64,000 nt of DNA from Pseudomonadota bacterium (lineage in GTDB: Bacteria; Pseudomonadota; Gammaproteobacteria; Xanthomonadales; SZUA-38). Under the pieces are notes generated by a model. The model worked only from the letters and a program-made list of their open reading frames with translations, was not told the DNA's origin and made no database searches. The stretch lies in NCBI GenBank assembly GCA_039033415.1, contig JBCCCR010000018.1, forward strand, positions 62,001-126,000, given 5' to 3'. The first letter of the stretch is position 1. Each line of letters begins with the position of its first letter. Below, in pieces: positions 11,897 through 50,678 of this stretch. A program made the position numbers and the translations under genes.

Positions 11897-13369
11897 ATGA
11901 AATTTTCCGTAGCTGAACAGTCAGCGGTTGAAGTTGCGACGCCCTGCCTCATCATCGGTGTGCATGAACAGGCTCGGCTCCGGGGAGCGGCCGCGGCAGT
12001 CAACAAAGCGAGCGGCGGGCGGCTGTTGAAGATGCTCAAAAGCGGCGACATCGCCACCCAGGTTGGCAAGATGTTTCTCTGGCCGGACGTGCCCGGGGTC
12101 AAGGCCGACCGGGTGTTGGTGGTCGGCTGCGGCAAGGCGGAAGAATTTGGCCCCTCGTCGCTGCAGGCGGCAACCGCTGGCGCCATGTTTTTCCTGGCCG
12201 GGCGCAACGTTCGCGCAGCCGCCTGTGCGCTGCCCGAGCTGACCATCAGCGGGCATACAGCGGCCTGGCGAACCCGACTCTGCGCACTCGCCTGCGCCTT
12301 CGGCGCCTACCGCTACACCGCCACCAAGGCCCGCAGCGCTCGGCGTTCGGCGGTATCCCGGGTGACCTTTTTCGGGGATAAGACGCTGCGTAAACCGCTC
12401 CGCGAAGCGGCCGCGATGGCCGCCGGCGTTGAGCGGGCCCGGGAGCTGGGTAATCTGCCGCCGAACATCTGTACCCCCAGCTACATCGCCCAGGAATGTC
12501 GTTCGATGGCGGAGAAGCTGCCGAACTGCAAGTCCCGGGTGCTCAGCCGCAAGGAGCTGGAGAATCTCGGCATGGGCTGCCTGCTGGGCGTTTCCCAGGG
12601 CAGCGCTCACCCGCCCAAGCTGGTGGTACTCACCTACCAGGGAGCGGCGAAAAGCGCGGCGCCGGTGGTCCTCGTCGGGAAGGGCATCACGTTCGATACG
12701 GGCGGTATCTCCCTGAAGCCCGGCAAGGGTATGGACGAGATGAAGTACGACATGTGCGGCGCCGCCAGCGTCATCGGGGCGTTTGCCGCCTGCGCTGCGC
12801 TCAAGCTGAAAATCAATCTGGTGACGCTCGTCCCGGCCGTGGAGAACATGCCTGACGGGAAGTCATATCGTCCCGGTGACGTCCTGACCAGCATGTCCGG
12901 CCAGACGGTGGAAGTACTCAACACCGACGCCGAGGGCCGACTCATACTTTGCGATGCGCTCACCTACGCCGAGCGCTTCAAGCCCCAGGCGGTGGTCGAC
13001 GTGGCAACGTTGACCGGAGCGTGCGTGATCGCTCTGGGTAAGCACGCCAGCGGCCTGATGACGCCCCACGACAAGCTGGCCGCCGAGCTGGTGGATGCCG
13101 GGGAAGACACCCACGACCGAGCGTGGCGTCTGCCCCTGTGGGACGACTACCAGCCTCAGCTCGATACACCCTACGCCGATATGGCCAACATCGGCGGCCC
13201 GACCGCCGGCGCGATCACGGCGGGCTGCTTTCTTGCCCGGTACACCAAAGCCTTCGACTGGGCGCATCTGGATATCGCCGGCAGCGGCTGGGACGGCGGC
13301 ACCAAGAATGGCGCCAGCGGCCGACCGGTGGCGCTGCTGACGCAGTTCCTGATCAATCGCGCCGGCTGA
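11897..13369 (+). CDS. pepA: Leucyl (cytosol) aminopeptidase PepA
   Basis: PepA is a dizinc/dimanganese M17 aminopeptidase that trims N-terminal residues; in E. coli it is also a DNA-binding accessory factor in cer recombination. The 490-residue product has the non-catalytic N-terminal macro-like domain and the catalytic C-terminal domain with VGKGITFDTGGISLKPGKGM, the signature NTDAEGRLIL and the metal ligands expected in these motifs. The ATG at 11897 starts MKFSVAEQSAVEV, typical of PepA. Three CCATGG sites lie in the 100 bases before the start. The holC gene that commonly follows pepA is not here; a structured repeat fills the gap to valS. Confidence 0.96.
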   Translation: MKFSVAEQSAVEVATPCLIIGVHEQARLRGAAAAVNKASGGRLLKMLKSGDIATQVGKMFLWPDVPGVKADRVLVVGCGKAEEFGPSSLQAATAGAMFFLAGRNVRAAACALPELTISGHTAAWRTRLCALACAFGAYRYTATKARSARRSAVSRVTFFGDKTLRKPLREAAAMAAGVERARELGNLPPNICTPSYIAQECRSMAEKLPNCKSRVLSRKELENLGMGCLLGVSQGSAHPPKLVVLTYQGAAKSAAPVVLVGKGITFDTGGISLKPGKGMDEMKYDMCGAASVIGAFAACAALKLKINLVTLVPAVENMPDGKSYRPGDVLTSMSGQTVEVLNTDAEGRLILCDALTYAERFKPQAVVDVATLTGACVIALGKHASGLMTPHDKLAAELVDAGEDTHDRAWRLPLWDDYQPQLDTPYADMANIGGPTAGAITAGCFLARYTKAFDWAHLDIAGSGWDGGTKNGASGRPVALLTQFLINRAG

Positions 13370-13376
13370 CACACCC

Positions 13377-13644
13377 AGTGTCCTGTCACGTTAATTGGTT
13401 GCATTTCAGAGCCCCGTTGGGCGCCAAGATCAAGGCGCATCGCGCCGGCAATGGCCGTAGCCCTTGGCAAGCGATGCAACGCGGTTTTTGGTGCCCAAGG
13501 GGGCTCCCTTCGGGCGCGTCCCACAAGGCCTGGAGCGGCGTTGCGAGCCTTGGCCAGGGAACCACCCTGGCCGGCGCCTCGCGCCTAACTCCAGGGCCTT
13601 GTGGACACGCGCTGAAACTCAACAAATTAACGTGACAGGACACT
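13377..13644. repeat. Self-complementary three-way-junction element, copy A
   Basis: This 268-bp intergenic element begins AGTGTCCTGTCACGTTAATT and ends with the reverse complement of that sequence. The outer stem has 20 perfect pairs and continues with few mismatches to a TTTCAG box (about 36 bp). Inside are two long hairpin arms: arm 1 is closed by GCCCCGTTGGGCGCC with GGTGCCCAAGGGGGC, and arm 2 by GTCCCACAAGGCCTGGAG with CTCCAGGGCCTTGTGGAC. Arm 1 has GCGCATCGC and GCGATGC pairing near its tip, and arm 2 has GGCCAGGG and CCCTGGCC. It fills the pepA-valS gap, 7 bases after the pepA stop and 8 before the valS ATG. Interior identity to copy B is about 95 percent by eye, but 11 bp of the outer stem are unrelated. 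Confidence 0.9.
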
Positions 13645-13652
13645 AGCCTGCG

Positions 13653-16454
13653 ATGGACAAGAGCTATCAGCCGGCGGCGATCGAGCAGCGCTGGTACGAG
13701 CGCTGGGAGGAGCTCGGCGTTTTTGCACCGACATCCGAGGGTCAGCCCTACTGCATCATGCTGCCGCCCCCGAACGTCACGGGCGTGCTGCACATGGGCC
13801 ACGCATTCCAGCATACGCTGCAGGATGCCTTGACACGCTACCATCGCATGGCCGGCCATAGTGCGCTCTGGCAGTGCGGGACCGACCATGCCGGCATCGC
13901 CACGCAGATGGTGGTCGAGCGCCAGCTGGAGAGCAAAGGCCAGACCCGACATGACCTCGGCCGCCAGGCGTTCACCGAAGCCGTGTGGCACTGGAAGGCT
14001 CACTCGGGCGGTGAAATCACGCGGCAGATGCGCCGGCTGGGCGACTCGGTCGACTGGCAGCACGAACGGTTCACGATGGACGAAGGACTGTCAGCGGCGG
14101 TTCGCGAGGTGTTTGTTTCGCTCTACGAGCAGGGCCTCATCTACCGTGGCAAACGGCTCGTGAACTGGGATCCGGTGCTGCACACGGCGTTGTCCGATCT
14201 GGAGGTGGTATCGGAAGAGGAGCGCGGGCACCTGTGGCACCTGCGCTACCCCCTGGCGGACGCGGACGGCGACCAGCAGCAATTCCTGGTCGTGGCCACG
14301 ACCCGCCCCGAGACGATGCTCGGCGACACGGCGGTGGCCGTACACCCCGACGACGAGCGCTATCAGCACCTCATCGGTCAGCGCATCGAGCTGCCGCTCA
14401 GCGACCGGCAAATCCCGATCATCGCCGACAGCTACGTCGACCCAGCTTTTGGTACCGGCTGCGTGAAGATCACGCCAGCCCACGACTTCAACGACTACCA
14501 GATGGGCCAGCGGCACCAGCTGCCGCTGATCAATATCTTTACGCCGGAAGCGGCGATCAACGAAAACGGCCCGCAGGCCTATCAAGGCCTCGACCGGATG
14601 GAGGCGCGCCGGCGCATCGTCGCCGACCTCGAGGCCGCCGGCCTGCTGGAAAAAACTGAGGACCATACGCTGACCGTTCCTCGCGGCGACCGTTCGGGGG
14701 CGGTGCTGGAGCCGTACCTCACCGATCAGTGGTATGTCGATCTGACCCGGGACCAGCAGCCCGACGGCCGTCCAGGCGGGCTGGCCGCCATCACCAAGCC
14801 GGCAATTGAGGCTGTCCGCAGCGGCGCGGTGCGCTTTGTCCCAAGCAACTGGGACAAAACCTACTACGAGTGGCTCAACAACATTCAGGACTGGTGCATC
14901 AGCCGCCAGCTCTGGTGGGGACATCGCATTCCCGCCTGGTACGACGACGCCGGTCAGGTCTACGTCGGGAACAGCGAGGCGGAAGTTCGGGAGAATCATG
15001 ACCTTGGCGATCGCCCGCTGAAGCAGGACGAAGATGTCCTCGACACCTGGTTCTCTTCCGGACTATGGCCGTTTTCCACCCTGGGCTGGCCGGAGCAGAC
15101 CGACCGGCTGCAGCGGTTTTATCCGGGCAACGTGCTGGTCACCGGCTTTGACATTATCTTTTTCTGGGTCGCCCGGATGATCATGTTTGGCCTGAAATTT
15201 ATGGGCGACGTGCCGTTTCGCGAGGTGTACATCACGGGCCTCATCCGCGACTACCAGGGCCAGAAGATGTCCAAGTCCAAGGGCAACGTGCTCGATCCGC
15301 TGGACCTCATCGACGGCATCGACCTCGATGCGCTGCTGCACAAGCGCACCAGCGGCCTGATGCAACCGCAGATGGCGGCCAAGATTGAGAAGGCCACGCG
15401 CAAAGAATTTCCCAACGGGATCCAGGCCTACGGGACCGACGCGCTGCGCTTCACCTTTGCCGCCCTGGCAACCCATGGGCGGGATATCCGCTTCGATACC
15501 GGCCGTATCGAAGGCTACCGGAACTTCTGCAACAAGATCTGGAATGCGGCTCGCTACGTGCTGATGAACGTCGAGGATGAGGCTGTCCAGCAGCAGCCCG
15601 CGCAGGCTACCATCTTTGATCAGTGGATCGTTTCGCGCCTGAATCACGCCGCGGACCGGGTCAACCAGGACCTGAAGCGCTATCGCTTTGACCTCGCCTC
15701 GGCGGCCATCTACGAATTCATCTGGCACGAGTACTGCGACTGGTACCTCGAGCTGACCAAACCGATTCTGAACGCCGATGGACATCCCTCGGCGGCGCAC
15801 ACCCGCTACACCCTGCTGTCGGTGCTGGAAGAACTGCTGAAGCTCATCCACCCGCTGATGCCGTTCATTTCGGAAGAGATCTGGCAACGGGTGGCGCCCA
15901 AGCTGTCGATCGACGGCACCACGATCTCCACTCAGGCTTTCCCAGGCGTCAGCGATGACCGGAGCTACCCGGCGGCAGAAGAAGAGGTACGCTGGCTGCA
16001 GCAGCTGCTGCTGGGCCTGCGACAGATCCGCGGCGAGATGAACATCGCACCGCGCAAATCGCTGACGCTGCTCCTCGAAGGCGGCAGCGAGCAGCATCGG
16101 CGCCTGTTCGACCGACATGTGGAAATGCTCCAGGCGCTGGGCTCACTCGGCGATTGCCGCTGGCTCGCTGACGGCGAAGAAGCGCCAGCCTCGGCCTTTG
16201 CCAGCGCTGGCGAATTAAAGCTGCACGTCCCGCTGGCGGGCATCATCGACCCCAAGGAGGAGCTCGCCCGCCTGGACAAAGAACTCGAGCGAAAGTCCCA
16301 GGAGATCCAGCGGCTCAACGGCAAATTATCGAACGAAAAGTTTGTCGCTAACGCGCCGGAGGCGGTGGTCACCAAGGCGCGTGATCAGCTCGCCGCAGCG
16401 GAGTCGGAAAGTCGGGACCTGGCAGCGCAGATCGAGCGCCTAAGGAATCTCTAG
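13653..16454 (+). CDS. valS: Valyl-tRNA synthetase
   Basis: ValS charges tRNA-Val in the cytoplasm. The 933-residue class I synthetase shows [15 protein letters not shown] (HIGH motif), the editing domain ([18 protein letters not shown]), [12 protein letters not shown] (KMSKS), the anticodon-binding domain and a C-terminal coiled coil ([20 protein letters not shown]), all at usual length. The ATG at 13653 gives [20 protein letters not shown]. No good Shine-Dalgarno lies in native sequence; AGGA at 13637-13640 is inside the 3' arm of repeat copy A, 12 bases before the ATG. Confidence 0.97.
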
Positions 16455-38393: not shown

Positions 38394-39620
38394 CTAGAGA
38401 TGGCGGCGTGGGGGAACCACCGTATTTCCCAGCAGCAGTCCCGCAACCAGCGCCGCCAGCACCGTCGCCACCGCCACCGCGGCGGCGAGGCCGTCGTTCA
38501 CGTTGTCGGAAAACATCAGCGTCAGCGAGCGATAGCCGAGGGAACCGGGAACCAGCAATATCACCCCTGGCAGACGCATAACCGAGGCCGGACGGCGGAG
38601 CACGCGAGAATACAGGTTGCTGAGCGCCGCAACCGCAAAGGCGGCAAAAAACACGCCGACATCAGCGCCCAGCGCTCCGCCCGCGAGCTTGTTCACCGTA
38701 AACGCCAGCAGTCCAGCCAGTGCCATCGCCGGATAGTCCGAGCGGCGGGCTTTGAACAACACGCCGAAAGCCACTCCGACCAGCACGATGGAAGGCCAGG
38801 TGAACCAGGGTGAAGACACGGGATCCACCACCACCGTCAGCTGAGTGAAGCCCAGCAGGTTCATCAGCTGGGTCGCCATCACCACGCCCAAAGCCAGCTT
38901 GACCAGCCCTACCACCGCCCCGGCGAAACGCGCGGTGCCGGACGCCAGATGTCGAGTCGACAGCTCCGTGATCGCCATGGTCAGTGACAGTCCGGGCATC
39001 AGCACAATCAGCGCGCCGACGACAATATGCGGGACGTTCGAACCGCCGAGCCAGGTTGCACAGACATAGGCGAGCACCGTCACCACAAACGCAGCGATCG
39101 GTTCAAAGCTGCCCAGCTCGAGCAGGCGAGCGCTGCGAAGACTGAAAAAGCCGGTCAGCACCGCCAGCCCGGCGGCCAGACCGATGTCGACCCAGTTGCC
39201 GCCCAGCAGGCCGGCCACGGTCATGCCGACGATCCCCCAGGCGGTCAGGACGGGCAGTGGTGATGCGGGCACCGGCAGCGCAATCTGCTTGAGCTCTGCG
39301 GCACCGTCGGCGACGCTGAGACTCCCGTCTGCCACCGCTTCGCTCACCGCGTCCACGGCACACAGGCGTCCCAGATCGTCCTCACCCGGATTGAGGCGCA
39401 GCAGCTGAGTCGGCAGCAGGACGTCGTCAGGGTCGGCGCCAACCTCGCGAAAGGTCAGGAACATGCTGGTTGGCGACGAGAACACCTCCACCTCGAGACC
39501 GAGCCGCTCACCGACGCTTTTAACAGCGCCCTCAAGACGGTGCGCACCGGCGCCGTATTCGTGGAGCCGCTGGGCCATGAGGCGCACAAAGCGAACCGAG
39601 GCGGTGGGCTGATCGGTCAC
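38394..39620 (-). CDS. Threonine/serine exporter ThrE family protein (fused two-domain)
   Basis: The 408-residue inner-membrane protein has the ThrE (DUF1212) half followed by the ThrE_2 (DUF3815) half in one chain. The N-terminal soluble part (RLMAQRLHEYGAGAHRLEGAVKSVGERLGL) is followed by about ten membrane segments. The motifs LMPGLSLTMAITELSTRHLASGTAR and LLVPGSLGYRSLTLMF support the call. The GTG at 39620 overlaps the methyltransferase stop. Export of threonine, serine or similar small solutes is inferred from family. Confidence 0.87.
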   Translation of the reverse strand: MTDQPTASVRFVRLMAQRLHEYGAGAHRLEGAVKSVGERLGLEVEVFSSPTSMFLTFREVGADPDDVLLPTQLLRLNPGEDDLGRLCAVDAVSEAVADGSLSVADGAAELKQIALPVPASPLPVLTAWGIVGMTVAGLLGGNWVDIGLAAGLAVLTGFFSLRSARLLELGSFEPIAAFVVTVLAYVCATWLGGSNVPHIVVGALIVLMPGLSLTMAITELSTRHLASGTARFAGAVVGLVKLALGVVMATQLMNLLGFTQLTVVVDPVSSPWFTWPSIVLVGVAFGVLFKARRSDYPAMALAGLLAFTVNKLAGGALGADVGVFFAAFAVAALSNLYSRVLRRPASVMRLPGVILLVPGSLGYRSLTLMFSDNVNDGLAAAVAVATVLAALVAGLLLGNTVVPPRRHL

Positions 39621-40609
39621 GTGCGGTCAGATCTCGGGTCGGTGACGGTGATCGCCACCTCGCGTCCGAGCATGGCCGCCGCTCGGTACGCGTAAGTTAT
39701 GCCCCGGCTTTTGCTGAACTCCTCCAGCGCGCGGTGCTCGTGATCGCGCCAGCCCGCAAAACCCATGTAGTCGTCAAAGACGATCACCGTGCCTTCCCGC
39801 AGCAGCGGCGCAAAGGCGTTCAGCACCGTCAGCGTCGAGCTGTAGAGGTCGCAGTCGACGTGCAGCAGGTCCAGTGGCTGGTCCTGGTCGCTGACAAAAG
39901 CTGGCAGGGTTTGGTCGAACCAGCCTTTGTAGAGCAAGACGTTGGCGGGTACCTGCGGCAGCTGCCCGCCCGTACTGTAGGCGCCCTCCGGTTCACCGAC
40001 CTTCCACGCTTCGGGCAGGCCGGCGAAGCTGTCAAAGCCGTGCACCCGGTCCCGGCGGGCAGCCAGCAGGCGAATCGAGCGGCCCCAGAAGACGCCGCAC
40101 TCCACGCACAGCCCGCCCGTCGGCGCGTTTGCCAGCGCCCAGTCGAGCACGTTTGCCGGAAATGCCAGCCACGCCAGGTCGGGTTGCGGCAGCAGGTGGG
40201 CCATGCCGTCCATCGCGTCTGACCAGGGCGGCGACGCGGGACTCGGTGCAGCAAGGGTGGCCGGTGCGGCCGCTGCCTCCACAGCCCAGGCGACCGCCTG
40301 GCAAAACGGCGAGGCGTCCAGCCGGCGTGCTGCGTCACGTGCCTCAACCGTGCGCCCGGCCGCCCACAGCAGCAGCACCTCGTAGGCGGCCAGCGCTCCG
40401 GAGTCAGGGCTCCGTTGGCGCCAGAACGCCACCAGCTTGGCCGCCTCGCTGAGGTTGCCCAGCGCCAGCAGCGCACGCAGCAACGCCAGGATGTCCCGCT
40501 CCTGCCCATATCGTGCGGCCCCCGCGAAGCTGCGCGTGGCGGCGCCGTACCTCCCGGAGCGCCAAAGATCCTGCCCCTGCTGTCGCAGGGCCTGAAGCGT
40601 ATCGTCCAT
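39617..40609 (-). CDS. TylF/MacO-like class I methyltransferase with N-terminal helical repeats
   Basis: This protein of 330 residues has a TPR-like N-terminal third (GQDLWRSGRYGAATRSFAGA, ALLALGNLSEAAKLVAFWRQ) and a C-terminal methyltransferase of the TylF kind (LCVECGVFWGRSIRLLA, VHGFDSFAGLPEAWKVGEPE, LDLLHVDCDLYSST, IVFDDYMGFAGWRDHEHRAL). TylF relatives methylate sugar hydroxyls. ATG 40609 starts MDDTLQALRQQ; the open frame further upstream runs into repeat copy C and is not part of the gene. It overlaps thrE by 4 bases. Confidence 0.85.
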   Translation of the reverse strand: MDDTLQALRQQGQDLWRSGRYGAATRSFAGAARYGQERDILALLRALLALGNLSEAAKLVAFWRQRSPDSGALAAYEVLLLWAAGRTVEARDAARRLDASPFCQAVAWAVEAAAAPATLAAPSPASPPWSDAMDGMAHLLPQPDLAWLAFPANVLDWALANAPTGGLCVECGVFWGRSIRLLAARRDRVHGFDSFAGLPEAWKVGEPEGAYSTGGQLPQVPANVLLYKGWFDQTLPAFVSDQDQPLDLLHVDCDLYSSTLTVLNAFAPLLREGTVIVFDDYMGFAGWRDHEHRALEEFSKSRGITYAYRAAAMLGREVAITVTDPRSDRT

Positions 40610-40643
40610 GGCGGCGGATTCTAACCGGTTCAGGCTATAGATC

Positions 40644-40909
40644 AGTGCGCTGTCCCGCAAATAACTTGCGTTCAGAGCGTTGAGGACGCGCCAGGGCAAG
40701 GCGCGTGGCGCCGGCAATGGCCGTAGCCCTTGCCAAGCCATGCAACGCGGCCATGGTGCGTCCTCAACGCTCCCGCAGGGCCCATCCCACAACGGCTGTG
40801 GGGGCGTTACGAACCTTGGCCATGGAATGACCATGGCGCTGCGGCTCGTGCCTTCCCACAGCCGTTCTGGGACGGGCTGAAGCGAAAGTTATTTGCGGGA
40901 CAGCGCACT
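40644..40909. repeat. Self-complementary three-way-junction element, copy C
   Basis: This 266-bp element begins AGTGCGCTGTCCCGCAAATA and ends with its reverse complement; the first 24 bases pair perfectly, then a TTCAG box. Arm 1 is closed by GCGTTGAGGACGC with GCGTCCTCAACGC. Arm 2 is closed by CCCACAACGGCTGTGGG with CCCACAGCCGTTCTGGG. Both closing stems differ in sequence from copies A and B but are internally complementary. The tips keep GGCAATGGCCGTAGCCCTTG and GGCGTTACGAACCTTGGC, close to the other copies. It sits between the MarR stop (whose TAG overlaps the element end) and the TylF-like gene start, both on the minus strand. Confidence 0.88.
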
Positions 40910-43110: not shown

Positions 43111-43378
43111 AGTGTCCTGTTTGAACAGTTCGTTGCGTTTCAGAGCCCCGTTGGGCGCCAAGAACAAGGCGCATCGCGCCGCCAATGGCCGACGCCCTTG
43201 GCAAGCGATGCAACACGGTTATTGGCGCCCAAGGGGGCTCCCTTCGGGCGCGACCCACAAGGCCTGGAGCGGCGTTGCGAGCCTTGGCCAGGGAACCACC
43301 CTGGCCGGCGGCTCGCGCCTGACTCCAGGGCCTTGTGGACACGCGCTGAAATACAACGAACTGTTCAAACAGGACACT
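43111..43378. repeat. Self-complementary three-way-junction element, copy B
   Basis: This 268-bp element has the same length and about 95 percent interior identity to copy A. It begins AGTGTCCTGTTTGAACAGTT and ends with its reverse complement; the first 25 bases pair perfectly, then nearly to TTTCAG. Stem bases 11-21 (TTGAACAGTTC) are unrelated to copy A (CACGTTAATTG), though each is matched by its own opposite arm. Arm 1 TTGGGCGCCAA/TTGGCGCCCAA is perfect here, whereas copy A has a mismatch. The element fills the gap between the convergent GATase and hisN-like genes, with CTAG at both outer edges. Confidence 0.9.
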
Positions 43379-49656: not shown

Positions 49657-50385
49657 ATGAGACGTCAGCGGCTTTTCCTGGCCGATGCCCCCGCCAACGG
49701 CGGCTGGACGCTGCCAGAAAAGCGGGCACACTACCTGCGCCGCGTGCTGCGCCTGAAGCCCGGCTACCAGGTGACGGTTTTTAACGGGCGAGGACAGCAG
49801 TGGCAGGCGGCGCTGGCCGACGCGACGGGCCAGCGCCTCGAGCTGCTGGAGGACCTCGGCCTGACCCCGGAGCAGGGGCTGGGGACGCTGCTGATTCAGT
49901 GCGTCGGCCGCGGGGAGCGGATGGATTATGCGCTGCAGAAAGCGACGGAGCTGGGGGTCCGTGAGGTCATGCCCGTCAGCTCCGAGCGGACCGAGGTGCG
50001 GCTGTCCGGTGATCGCGCCCAGCGACGCCTGGAACACTGGCAGGCGGTGGTGGTCCAGGCCTGCGAACAGTGCGGCCGCAGCTGGGTGCCGCAGGTCCAA
50101 GCCTTAAGCGCGCTGGACGAGGCGCTCTCCCAGATTGACGCTAGCTACGATGTTCGCCTGGCGCTGACGCCGGATGGGGACCCGCTGAGCCGTGGTCAGT
50201 CAACACCGAACGGTCTGGCGGTGCTGATTGGGCCGGAAGGTGGACTGAGCGACGCGGAGCTGAGAGCGGCGCAGCGTCAGGGGTTCGCCGCAACCGCCTT
50301 GGGCCCGCGCGTTCTGCGCACCGAAACCGCCGGCCCGGCGATGCTGGCAGCGGCCCAGGCGCTGTGGGGGGATTTTGCGGCCTAG
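49657..50385 (+). CDS. rsmE: 16S rRNA (uracil-1498-N3)-methyltransferase RsmE
   Basis: The SPOUT-class enzyme methylates U1498 of 16S rRNA. The 242 residues show an N-terminal PUA-like domain (RAHYLRRVLRLKPGYQVTVF) and the SPOUT knot with LLIQCVGRGERMDYALQKAT, LAVLIGPEGGLSDAE and GFAATALGPRVLRTETAGPA. AAGGA precedes the ATG. A CTCAA/TTGAG inverted repeat (49624-49639) lies in the 60-base spacer with gspG. Confidence 0.94.
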   Translation: MRRQRLFLADAPANGGWTLPEKRAHYLRRVLRLKPGYQVTVFNGRGQQWQAALADATGQRLELLEDLGLTPEQGLGTLLIQCVGRGERMDYALQKATELGVREVMPVSSERTEVRLSGDRAQRRLEHWQAVVVQACEQCGRSWVPQVQALSALDEALSQIDASYDVRLALTPDGDPLSRGQSTPNGLAVLIGPEGGLSDAELRAAQRQGFAATALGPRVLRTETAGPAMLAAAQALWGDFAA

Positions 50386-50405
50386 TGGCCTAGTGGGCTA
50401 GTGGG
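50381..50405. repeat. Three tandem CTAGTGG units at the edge of repeat copy D
   Basis: CTAGTGG occurs three times with 9- and 8-base spacing just before and into the 5' end of copy D (the element itself begins AGTGGGC at 50400). The first unit overlaps the rsmE stop codon. Confidence 0.7.
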
Positions 50406-50678
50406 CCGCTTGAAAAGAAAGGTAAGTTCAGCGAGCGTGTCGGGCGTCAGGCCAAGGCCCAAGGTCAAGGCGATGGGTCGGGGTCATAGCCGTAGCTATG
50501 GCCGCGGCGGATCAACGCCGGCATGGCGCCTGACACGCTCGCCCTGCGGGTCGCCACCTGGGCCCGCCTGGCGGCGTTGCGAGCCTTGCCAAGGGCTGCG
50601 GCCATTGGCGGCGGCTCGCGCCTTGCCAGCCAGGCCCAGCTGGCGACTGAAGTCACCTTTCTCTTCAAGCAGCCCACT
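50400..50678. repeat. Self-complementary three-way-junction element, copy D
   Basis: This 279-bp element begins AGTGGGCCGCTTGAAAAGAA and ends with a near-perfect reverse complement (AGTGGGCTGCTTGAAGAGAA read on the other strand), then a TTCAG box. The outer stem is about 28 bp with four mismatches, two of them G-T type. Arm 1 is closed by GCGAGCGTGTC with GACACGCTCGC. Arm 2 has GTCGCCACCTGGGCC with GGCCCAGCTGGCGAC. The tip of arm 2 keeps GGCGTTGCGAGCCTTGCC and GGCGGCTCGCGCC, shared with A and B, while the stems are unlike the other copies. It fills the gap between convergent rsmE and a thioesterase gene. Confidence 0.85.

Follow-up and report, generated by a model that had tools for sequence, protein, structure and literature searches.

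How can two copies of a repeated element agree closely in their interior and carry unrelated sequences near their ends, while each end remains complementary to the opposite end of the same copy? This question was raised by a first-pass annotation of a 64,000-nucleotide stretch of a proteobacterial genome (the window), which set the arrangement against the inverted repeats that transposon copies share. It offered three explanations: copying of one arm onto the other through a hairpin, selection for an RNA structure, and capture of a target sequence duplicated in inverted orientation.

Copies of the element in the window

Copy A (13377-13644, plus strand, 268 bp) was flanked by a leucyl aminopeptidase gene (11897-13369) on one side and by valS (13653-16454) on the other. 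Its left arm (13377-13409, plus) is composed of a terminal inverted repeat and a TTTCAG box, and bases 1-10 and 22-33 of this arm were conserved among copies. Bases 11-21 (CACGTTAATTG; 13387-13397, plus) are the variable paired segment, with a pi of 0.51 against 0.062 for the interior. The core of hairpin 1, AGGCGC-N4-CGCCG...CAAG-N4-GCAAC, is at 13433-13480 (plus; G000:C18:75433-75480), and the CCCTTCGGG linker hairpin (13506-13514, plus) separates it from the core of hairpin 2, which has the same motif on the opposite strand (13540-13586, minus; G000:C18:75540-75586 minus). The right arm (13612-13644, plus) is an inverted copy of the left arm, and its variable segment (13624-13634, plus; pi 0.47) complements 13387-13397 at 10 of 11 bases.

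Copy B (43111-43378, plus) is also 268 bp long, with cores at 43167-43214 (plus) and 43274-43320 (minus). The identity between A and B was 89.2% over the full length and most differences fell in the two arms, so that the interior identity of about 95% given in the annotation is a fair figure. Bases 11-21 of the two copies, CACGTTAATTG and TTGAACAGTTC, agreed at about the level of chance, as had been claimed. An exact partner at the opposite end had been described for both copies; in B the segment paired at 11 of 11 bases, whereas A had a single mismatch, at base 21.

The two other copies, C (40644-40909, plus; core 40699-40746) and D (50400-50678, minus, 279 bp; core 50576-50623, minus), were of other subfamily type, and the stems of C were unrelated to those of A yet paired. 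The AGTG...CACT termini and TTCAG were present in all four copies, in agreement with the annotation, and all four were positioned inside or bordering short intergenic gaps.

The right end of A, AGGACACT, is about a dozen bases upstream of the valS start codon (13630-13655), and this conserved end may act as the valS ribosome-binding site or mask that site. A methyltransferase ORF (39617-40834, minus) has its predicted start within copy C; its first residues may be derived from the element, or the start may be wrongly placed. Repeated CTAGTGG fragments adjoin copy D (about 50380-50400) and look like scars from earlier insertions at the same site.

Architecture and pairing of the stems

Each copy was composed of an outer stem (AGTG...CACT), a TTCAG/CTGAA box, and two hairpins, which together make a Y shape. 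Hairpin 2 is a reverse-complement relative of hairpin 1, so that the core motif occurs once per strand, and CCCTTCGGG or a similar small hairpin is found between the two. The element thus carries a single bulged hairpin twice, in inverted orientation, a feature absent from the first-pass annotation. A similar inverted motif was present in the second half of all 11 elements of other lineages that were read. When the folding of A was compared with that of shuffled sequence, z was -12.7 for one strand and -13.4 for the other; A folds beyond chance.

Evidence for pairing was obtained from swap tests, pair counting, and wobble counts. Two-sided changes affected 43 of the 108 pairs scored in 17 related copies, against a mean of 18.9 after shuffling (none of 500 shuffles reached 43), and sliding the partner by 1-3 columns left 7-20 such pairs. 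In a set of 80 diverse hairpins, in which L107, L154, and L171 were kept although they are likely chance matches, arm identity in the inner stem P1 was 31%; the P1 duplex had a mean of -42.3 kcal/mol with its native arms and -22.4 kcal/mol with arms swapped, and the native partner ranked best of 80 for 62 hairpins. The inner stems, too, varied in a paired fashion between subfamilies, which the annotation had not mentioned.

The variable arm segment

The arms were compared in 14 full copies from the host genome (G000) and its sister species (G001), and diversity was calculated over 12 of them, with the L029/L215 subfamily excluded. In bases 11-21, pi was 0.506 on the left and 0.466 on the right, against 0.058-0.094 in bases 1-10 of the arms and 0.062 in the interior (12 copies). 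Within copies, the segment paired at 11 of 11 bases in eight, at 10 in four, at 9 in one, and at 5 in one. With 10 or 11 paired bases in 12 of the 14 copies, the annotation was right that the arms stay paired as their sequence changes, between fixed boundaries. The copy with 5 paired bases, L209:744-1023 of the sister species, had arms of two different types and may be a recombinant or an assembly misjoin. Distance in the segment had no relation to distance in the interior (rho 0.03) among the copies of the two species.

The same region of the arm was variable yet paired in ten Comamonadaceae elements, at positions 10-14 and 19-22, with 0-1 mismatch in 26. Arms in the host genome fell mostly into two clusters, CACGTTAATT and TTGRNARGTTC, along with many singletons. 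In the related genus g11, most copies of one genome had a common arm sequence, CTAGTGGGCCATGCGGCTAATTAGG, and differences were mainly between species. The idea that the segment acts like a variable barcode therefore held for the host and its sister species, and failed in g11, where copies share one terminal sequence, as the annotation had said would count against it; the barcode is lineage-specific and non-universal.

Two sites were occupied in both species, with one arm readable per site. The arm segment was unchanged at one of them and differed by 2 bases at the other; the segment is therefore not hypermutable in place. At these sites, 5 of 250 bases of element DNA differed between the species, and in the flanks the figure was 348 of 2883 (p 3e-8). 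This low divergence could be explained either by conservation in place, by conversion between copies, or by consensus effects at the contig ends of drafts. The comparison of shared sites argues that arm variants originate among source copies, either ahead of transposition or in its course.

Copy number and distribution

The host genome (6.4 Mb, 62 contigs) had the element at 30 or more loci, the best 30 of 70 BLAST matches to A having been made into loci. A strict hairpin core gave 37 exact matches in this genome and 0 with a reversed-pattern control, and 19 cores were found in the sister species. Many copies were located at contig ends, suggesting that the element breaks the assembly, and therefore the copy number is a minimum.

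Of 369 gammaproteobacterial species sampled, 21 had the strict core and none the reversed pattern. A scan of a species-level genome collection with the core pattern, by which the invariance of the core letters is partly imposed, found at least 119 stretches in alpha-, beta-, and gammaproteobacteria, and one in a MAG labelled Desulfovibrionaceae. In the first three classes the stems were unrelated between lineages and pairing was retained. In Rfam, the window and 16 diverse loci had no family match at the curated (gathering) threshold, and a search at E <= 5 gave a chance-level match only. Literature searches found no description of the element, and their sole sequence match was a PCR primer.

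Reduced forms (arms-only and single-hairpin remnants) were common. Arms-only remnants that had lost the whole interior were seen at L181:1678, L184:2632, L211:811, and L301:206-245, which suggests frequent deletion across the hairpins. In L302:387-552 and L305:234-387 one of the hairpins has been lost from close to its base; such a loss is the likely origin of the single-hairpin elements of 160-180 bp. Four copies of one genome (L282-L285, G064) had about 500 bp of similar flank in common, as if they were carried within a larger repeat.

Insertion sites

The joined flanks of ten copies of the host genome were sought in relatives. At four sites (L004, L006, L009, and L010), the sister species had a single TA where the host genome had TA-element-TA or a decayed form of it. 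Empty sites in a relative thus confirmed precise insertion with a duplicated target. The site of A was also empty in the sister species, with a diverged junction, and short element-like scars were found there at the sites of B (L007) and L008. Sequences of the sister species that resembled C, D, and L029 were considered as copies at the same sites and were rejected, as they were located at different sites. Among 47 diverse elements, TA flanked at least one side in 44 and both sides in 30, where the A was fixed by the search anchor and the informative base is the T. The element is mobile, because empty sites with TA duplication were found together with ends like those of the IS5 family in four other lineages.

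IS5-type ends and the search for a transposase

The outer 17-24 bases of four ISs (L197, L218, L330, and L332) closely matched the ends of four elements of other lineages. The match was exact for L076-type and L177-type elements and near-exact for the other two, with a weaker match at the right end for the L332 IS. The four ISs are of the IS5 family and 811-1192 bp long. Three of the four transposases scored above the NCBIfam IS5 cut-offs; that of L197 carries an IS5-family annotation and had stops in the frame read. ISs of the IS427 group are about 832-865 bp long and make 2-bp duplications, with one 4-bp exception (PMC3281130), and those of 811-863 bp found here resemble this group in length. 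The resemblance to IS427 is split between lineages, with IS5-type ends in other lineages and TA duplication in the element's own. The contrast that the annotation drew with transposon inverted repeats needs to be narrowed accordingly: in other lineages the outer part of the arm is itself an IS5-type inverted repeat, and the barcode lies just inside it.

Such ends were thus common to the element and an autonomous IS at the sequence level in four other lineages, and no partner was found in the host's own genome or order. No IS5-type transposase (Pfam DUF4096 or DDE_Tnp_1) was detected in the host genome (a draft of 62 contigs), the sister species, or a family relative (G003). Four g11 genomes, of which three were single-contig, yielded no autonomous element that shared these ends. 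An end-pattern search for an autonomous partner in the own genus and family returned element copies, scars, and remnants only, and end queries from several other lineages and the own lineage gave no clear IS match.

A 1.1-kb span with matching ends (L288:636-1749, G057) was considered as a partner IS and rejected, since it was a nest with another element type and an IS200-like gene. The nest has three levels, in which the element ends enclose a TTAACCCGG-type element that in turn encloses the IS200-like transposase gene.

Wobble pairs in inner stems and outer arms

A G.T mismatch is more stable than an A.C mismatch in both RNA and single-stranded DNA. If only the double-stranded end mattered, G.T and A.C would be expected equally often. 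On the motif strand of P1, 51 G.T and 15 A.C were counted under strict alignment (p 1e-5, an optimistic value, as are all wobble p-values here, since related sequences are non-independent), and 89 and 21 under loose alignment. A wider count gave 132:45 in P1 and 34:4 in P2, and 90:32 in P1 without near-duplicates; L107, L154, and L171 were left out of the wobble counts. Given how far G.T exceeded A.C on that strand, selection in the inner hairpins probably acts on a folded single strand, either RNA or single-stranded DNA.

The outer arms gave 10 G.T and 11 A.C under strict alignment and 24 and 32 under loose alignment. They were 98.3% Watson-Crick, with hardly any wobble pairs and frequent swaps between G-C and A-T. 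Pairing of the outer arms looks like a DNA-level matter, of arm-to-arm copying and/or a requirement of transposition, because the arms had no bias of G.T over A.C. Of the explanations in the first-pass annotation, selection for RNA structure would thus suit the inner hairpins and not the outer arms, and hairpin-templated copying would fit the outer arms.

Explanation of the matched arms

We think it reasonably probable that the element is a MITE of a superfamily found throughout Proteobacteria, with IS5-type ends, a conserved pair of hairpins, and arms matched by a DNA-level process. At 268 bp it is too short for a transposase gene, it was found at 30 or more loci, and its terminal inverted repeats and the precise insertions with TA duplication at the four empty sites are those of a MITE. 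The outer arms would be IS5-family (IS427-like) terminal inverted repeats, with insertion at TA, and the interior would hold the conserved bulged hairpin twice, in inverted orientation, so that each strand carries the motif of one hairpin. An IS5-type transposase would move the element in trans, in its own lineage as well; we infer this mobilization for the host's own order, in which no IS5-type transposase or autonomous partner was found. Within the inverted repeat, the transposase may make the fewest contacts with bases 11-21, whose sequence would then drift. The arms could be kept matched when the palindrome folds and one arm is copied onto the other by template switching in replication, and also because only copies with matched arms would continue to transpose. 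Palindromes are known to keep their stems perfect through template switching (PMC8794818). Against this reading count the failure to detect an IS5-type transposase in a host genome with 30 or more copies, an autonomous element with matching ends in the g11 genomes, or a clear IS match for the end queries from several lineages, together with the small arm changes at the two shared sites and the unpaired arms of L209. The inner hairpins, by contrast with the arms, would be selected as a folded single strand of RNA or DNA. As a tentative alternative, the hairpin pair might be a selfish structured module of RNA or single-stranded DNA, recognized by a protein, which spread across Proteobacteria as it acquired different IS5-family ends time and again, with arm-to-arm copying keeping them matched.

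Selection of the whole Y as RNA, including the outer stem, in a small RNA, a leader, or a terminator-like transcript, would reduce the matched arms to ordinary compensatory evolution. The strong covariation in each long helix and the excess of G.T over A.C on the motif strand of P1 and P2 agree with this, but the outer arms, with their 10:11 ratio, scarce wobble pairs, and frequent G-C/A-T swaps, do not; the lack of an Rfam family match also speaks against it, and since the motif is on opposite strands, any single transcript would have one hairpin in antisense. We consider it unlikely. Diversifying selection on the arms, whose variants would be specificity tags for resident or past transposases as the element switches ends, appears about as improbable. 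Lineages do have ends of clearly different IS5-family ISs, and host arms do fall mostly into the CACGTTAATT and TTGRNARGTTC clusters, but the host genome had many singleton arm sequences and no transposase variants matching the tags, and a change of transposase does not predict that bases 1-10 and 22-33 are common to copies.

REPIN-like movement, with a RAYT (Y1) transposase acting on single-stranded DNA, would account for two inverted hairpin units, a strand-specific folding signal, and compensatory changes like those of REPINs (PMC3116915), and Y1 transposase genes were present. REPINs cluster beside the RAYT gene, however, and no core lay within 1.5 kb of RAYT-like genes in the host, sister, or G003 genomes, while TA duplication and IS5-type ends indicate a DDE enzyme; this origin is very doubtful. 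Capture of target DNA, duplicated inverted at insertion, would explain why the segment is near the ends and differs between copies. It is almost certainly wrong, because the empty sites had a single TA only and nothing of the segment, and because the segment is internal to ten conserved terminal bases.

A conserved pair of structured hairpins within mobile elements of varied IS ends would be a widespread genomic repeat absent from Rfam and from the literature searched. The element also offers a natural way to test how perfect long stems persist without sequence conservation, and the comparison of outer arms without wobble bias and inner hairpins with a strong bias separates DNA-level matching from selection on a folded strand.

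Comparison with known systems

IS200/IS605 elements have strand-specific subterminal hairpins that are recognized as folded single strands. Unlike in the present element, those hairpins are short, the ends are not inverted repeats, and no target duplication is made. NEMIS and Correia elements are small repeats with paired inverted ends that insert at TA and fold as transcripts; as far as is known, the core motif and three-way shape of the present element differ from theirs. Like REPINs and BIMEs, the element consists of two inverted hairpin units in a larger hairpin, with compensatory changes in the stems (PMC3116915). It differs from them in its length of about 268 bp, compared with REP units of 20-40 bp, in its IS5-type ends and TA duplication, and in having no linkage to RAYT; at about 100 nt, its hairpin units differ in length and core from REP palindromes, which have a conserved tetranucleotide tag. 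The element resembles MITEs of the IS5 family (IS427 group) in being short, non-coding, multi-copy, and intergenic, with TA duplication and with ends that match IS5 in other lineages. It is not plainly derived from one IS by internal deletion, however, and no partner IS was found in its own order; unlike those MITEs, it has a two-hairpin interior that is common across Proteobacteria whatever the IS type of its ends.
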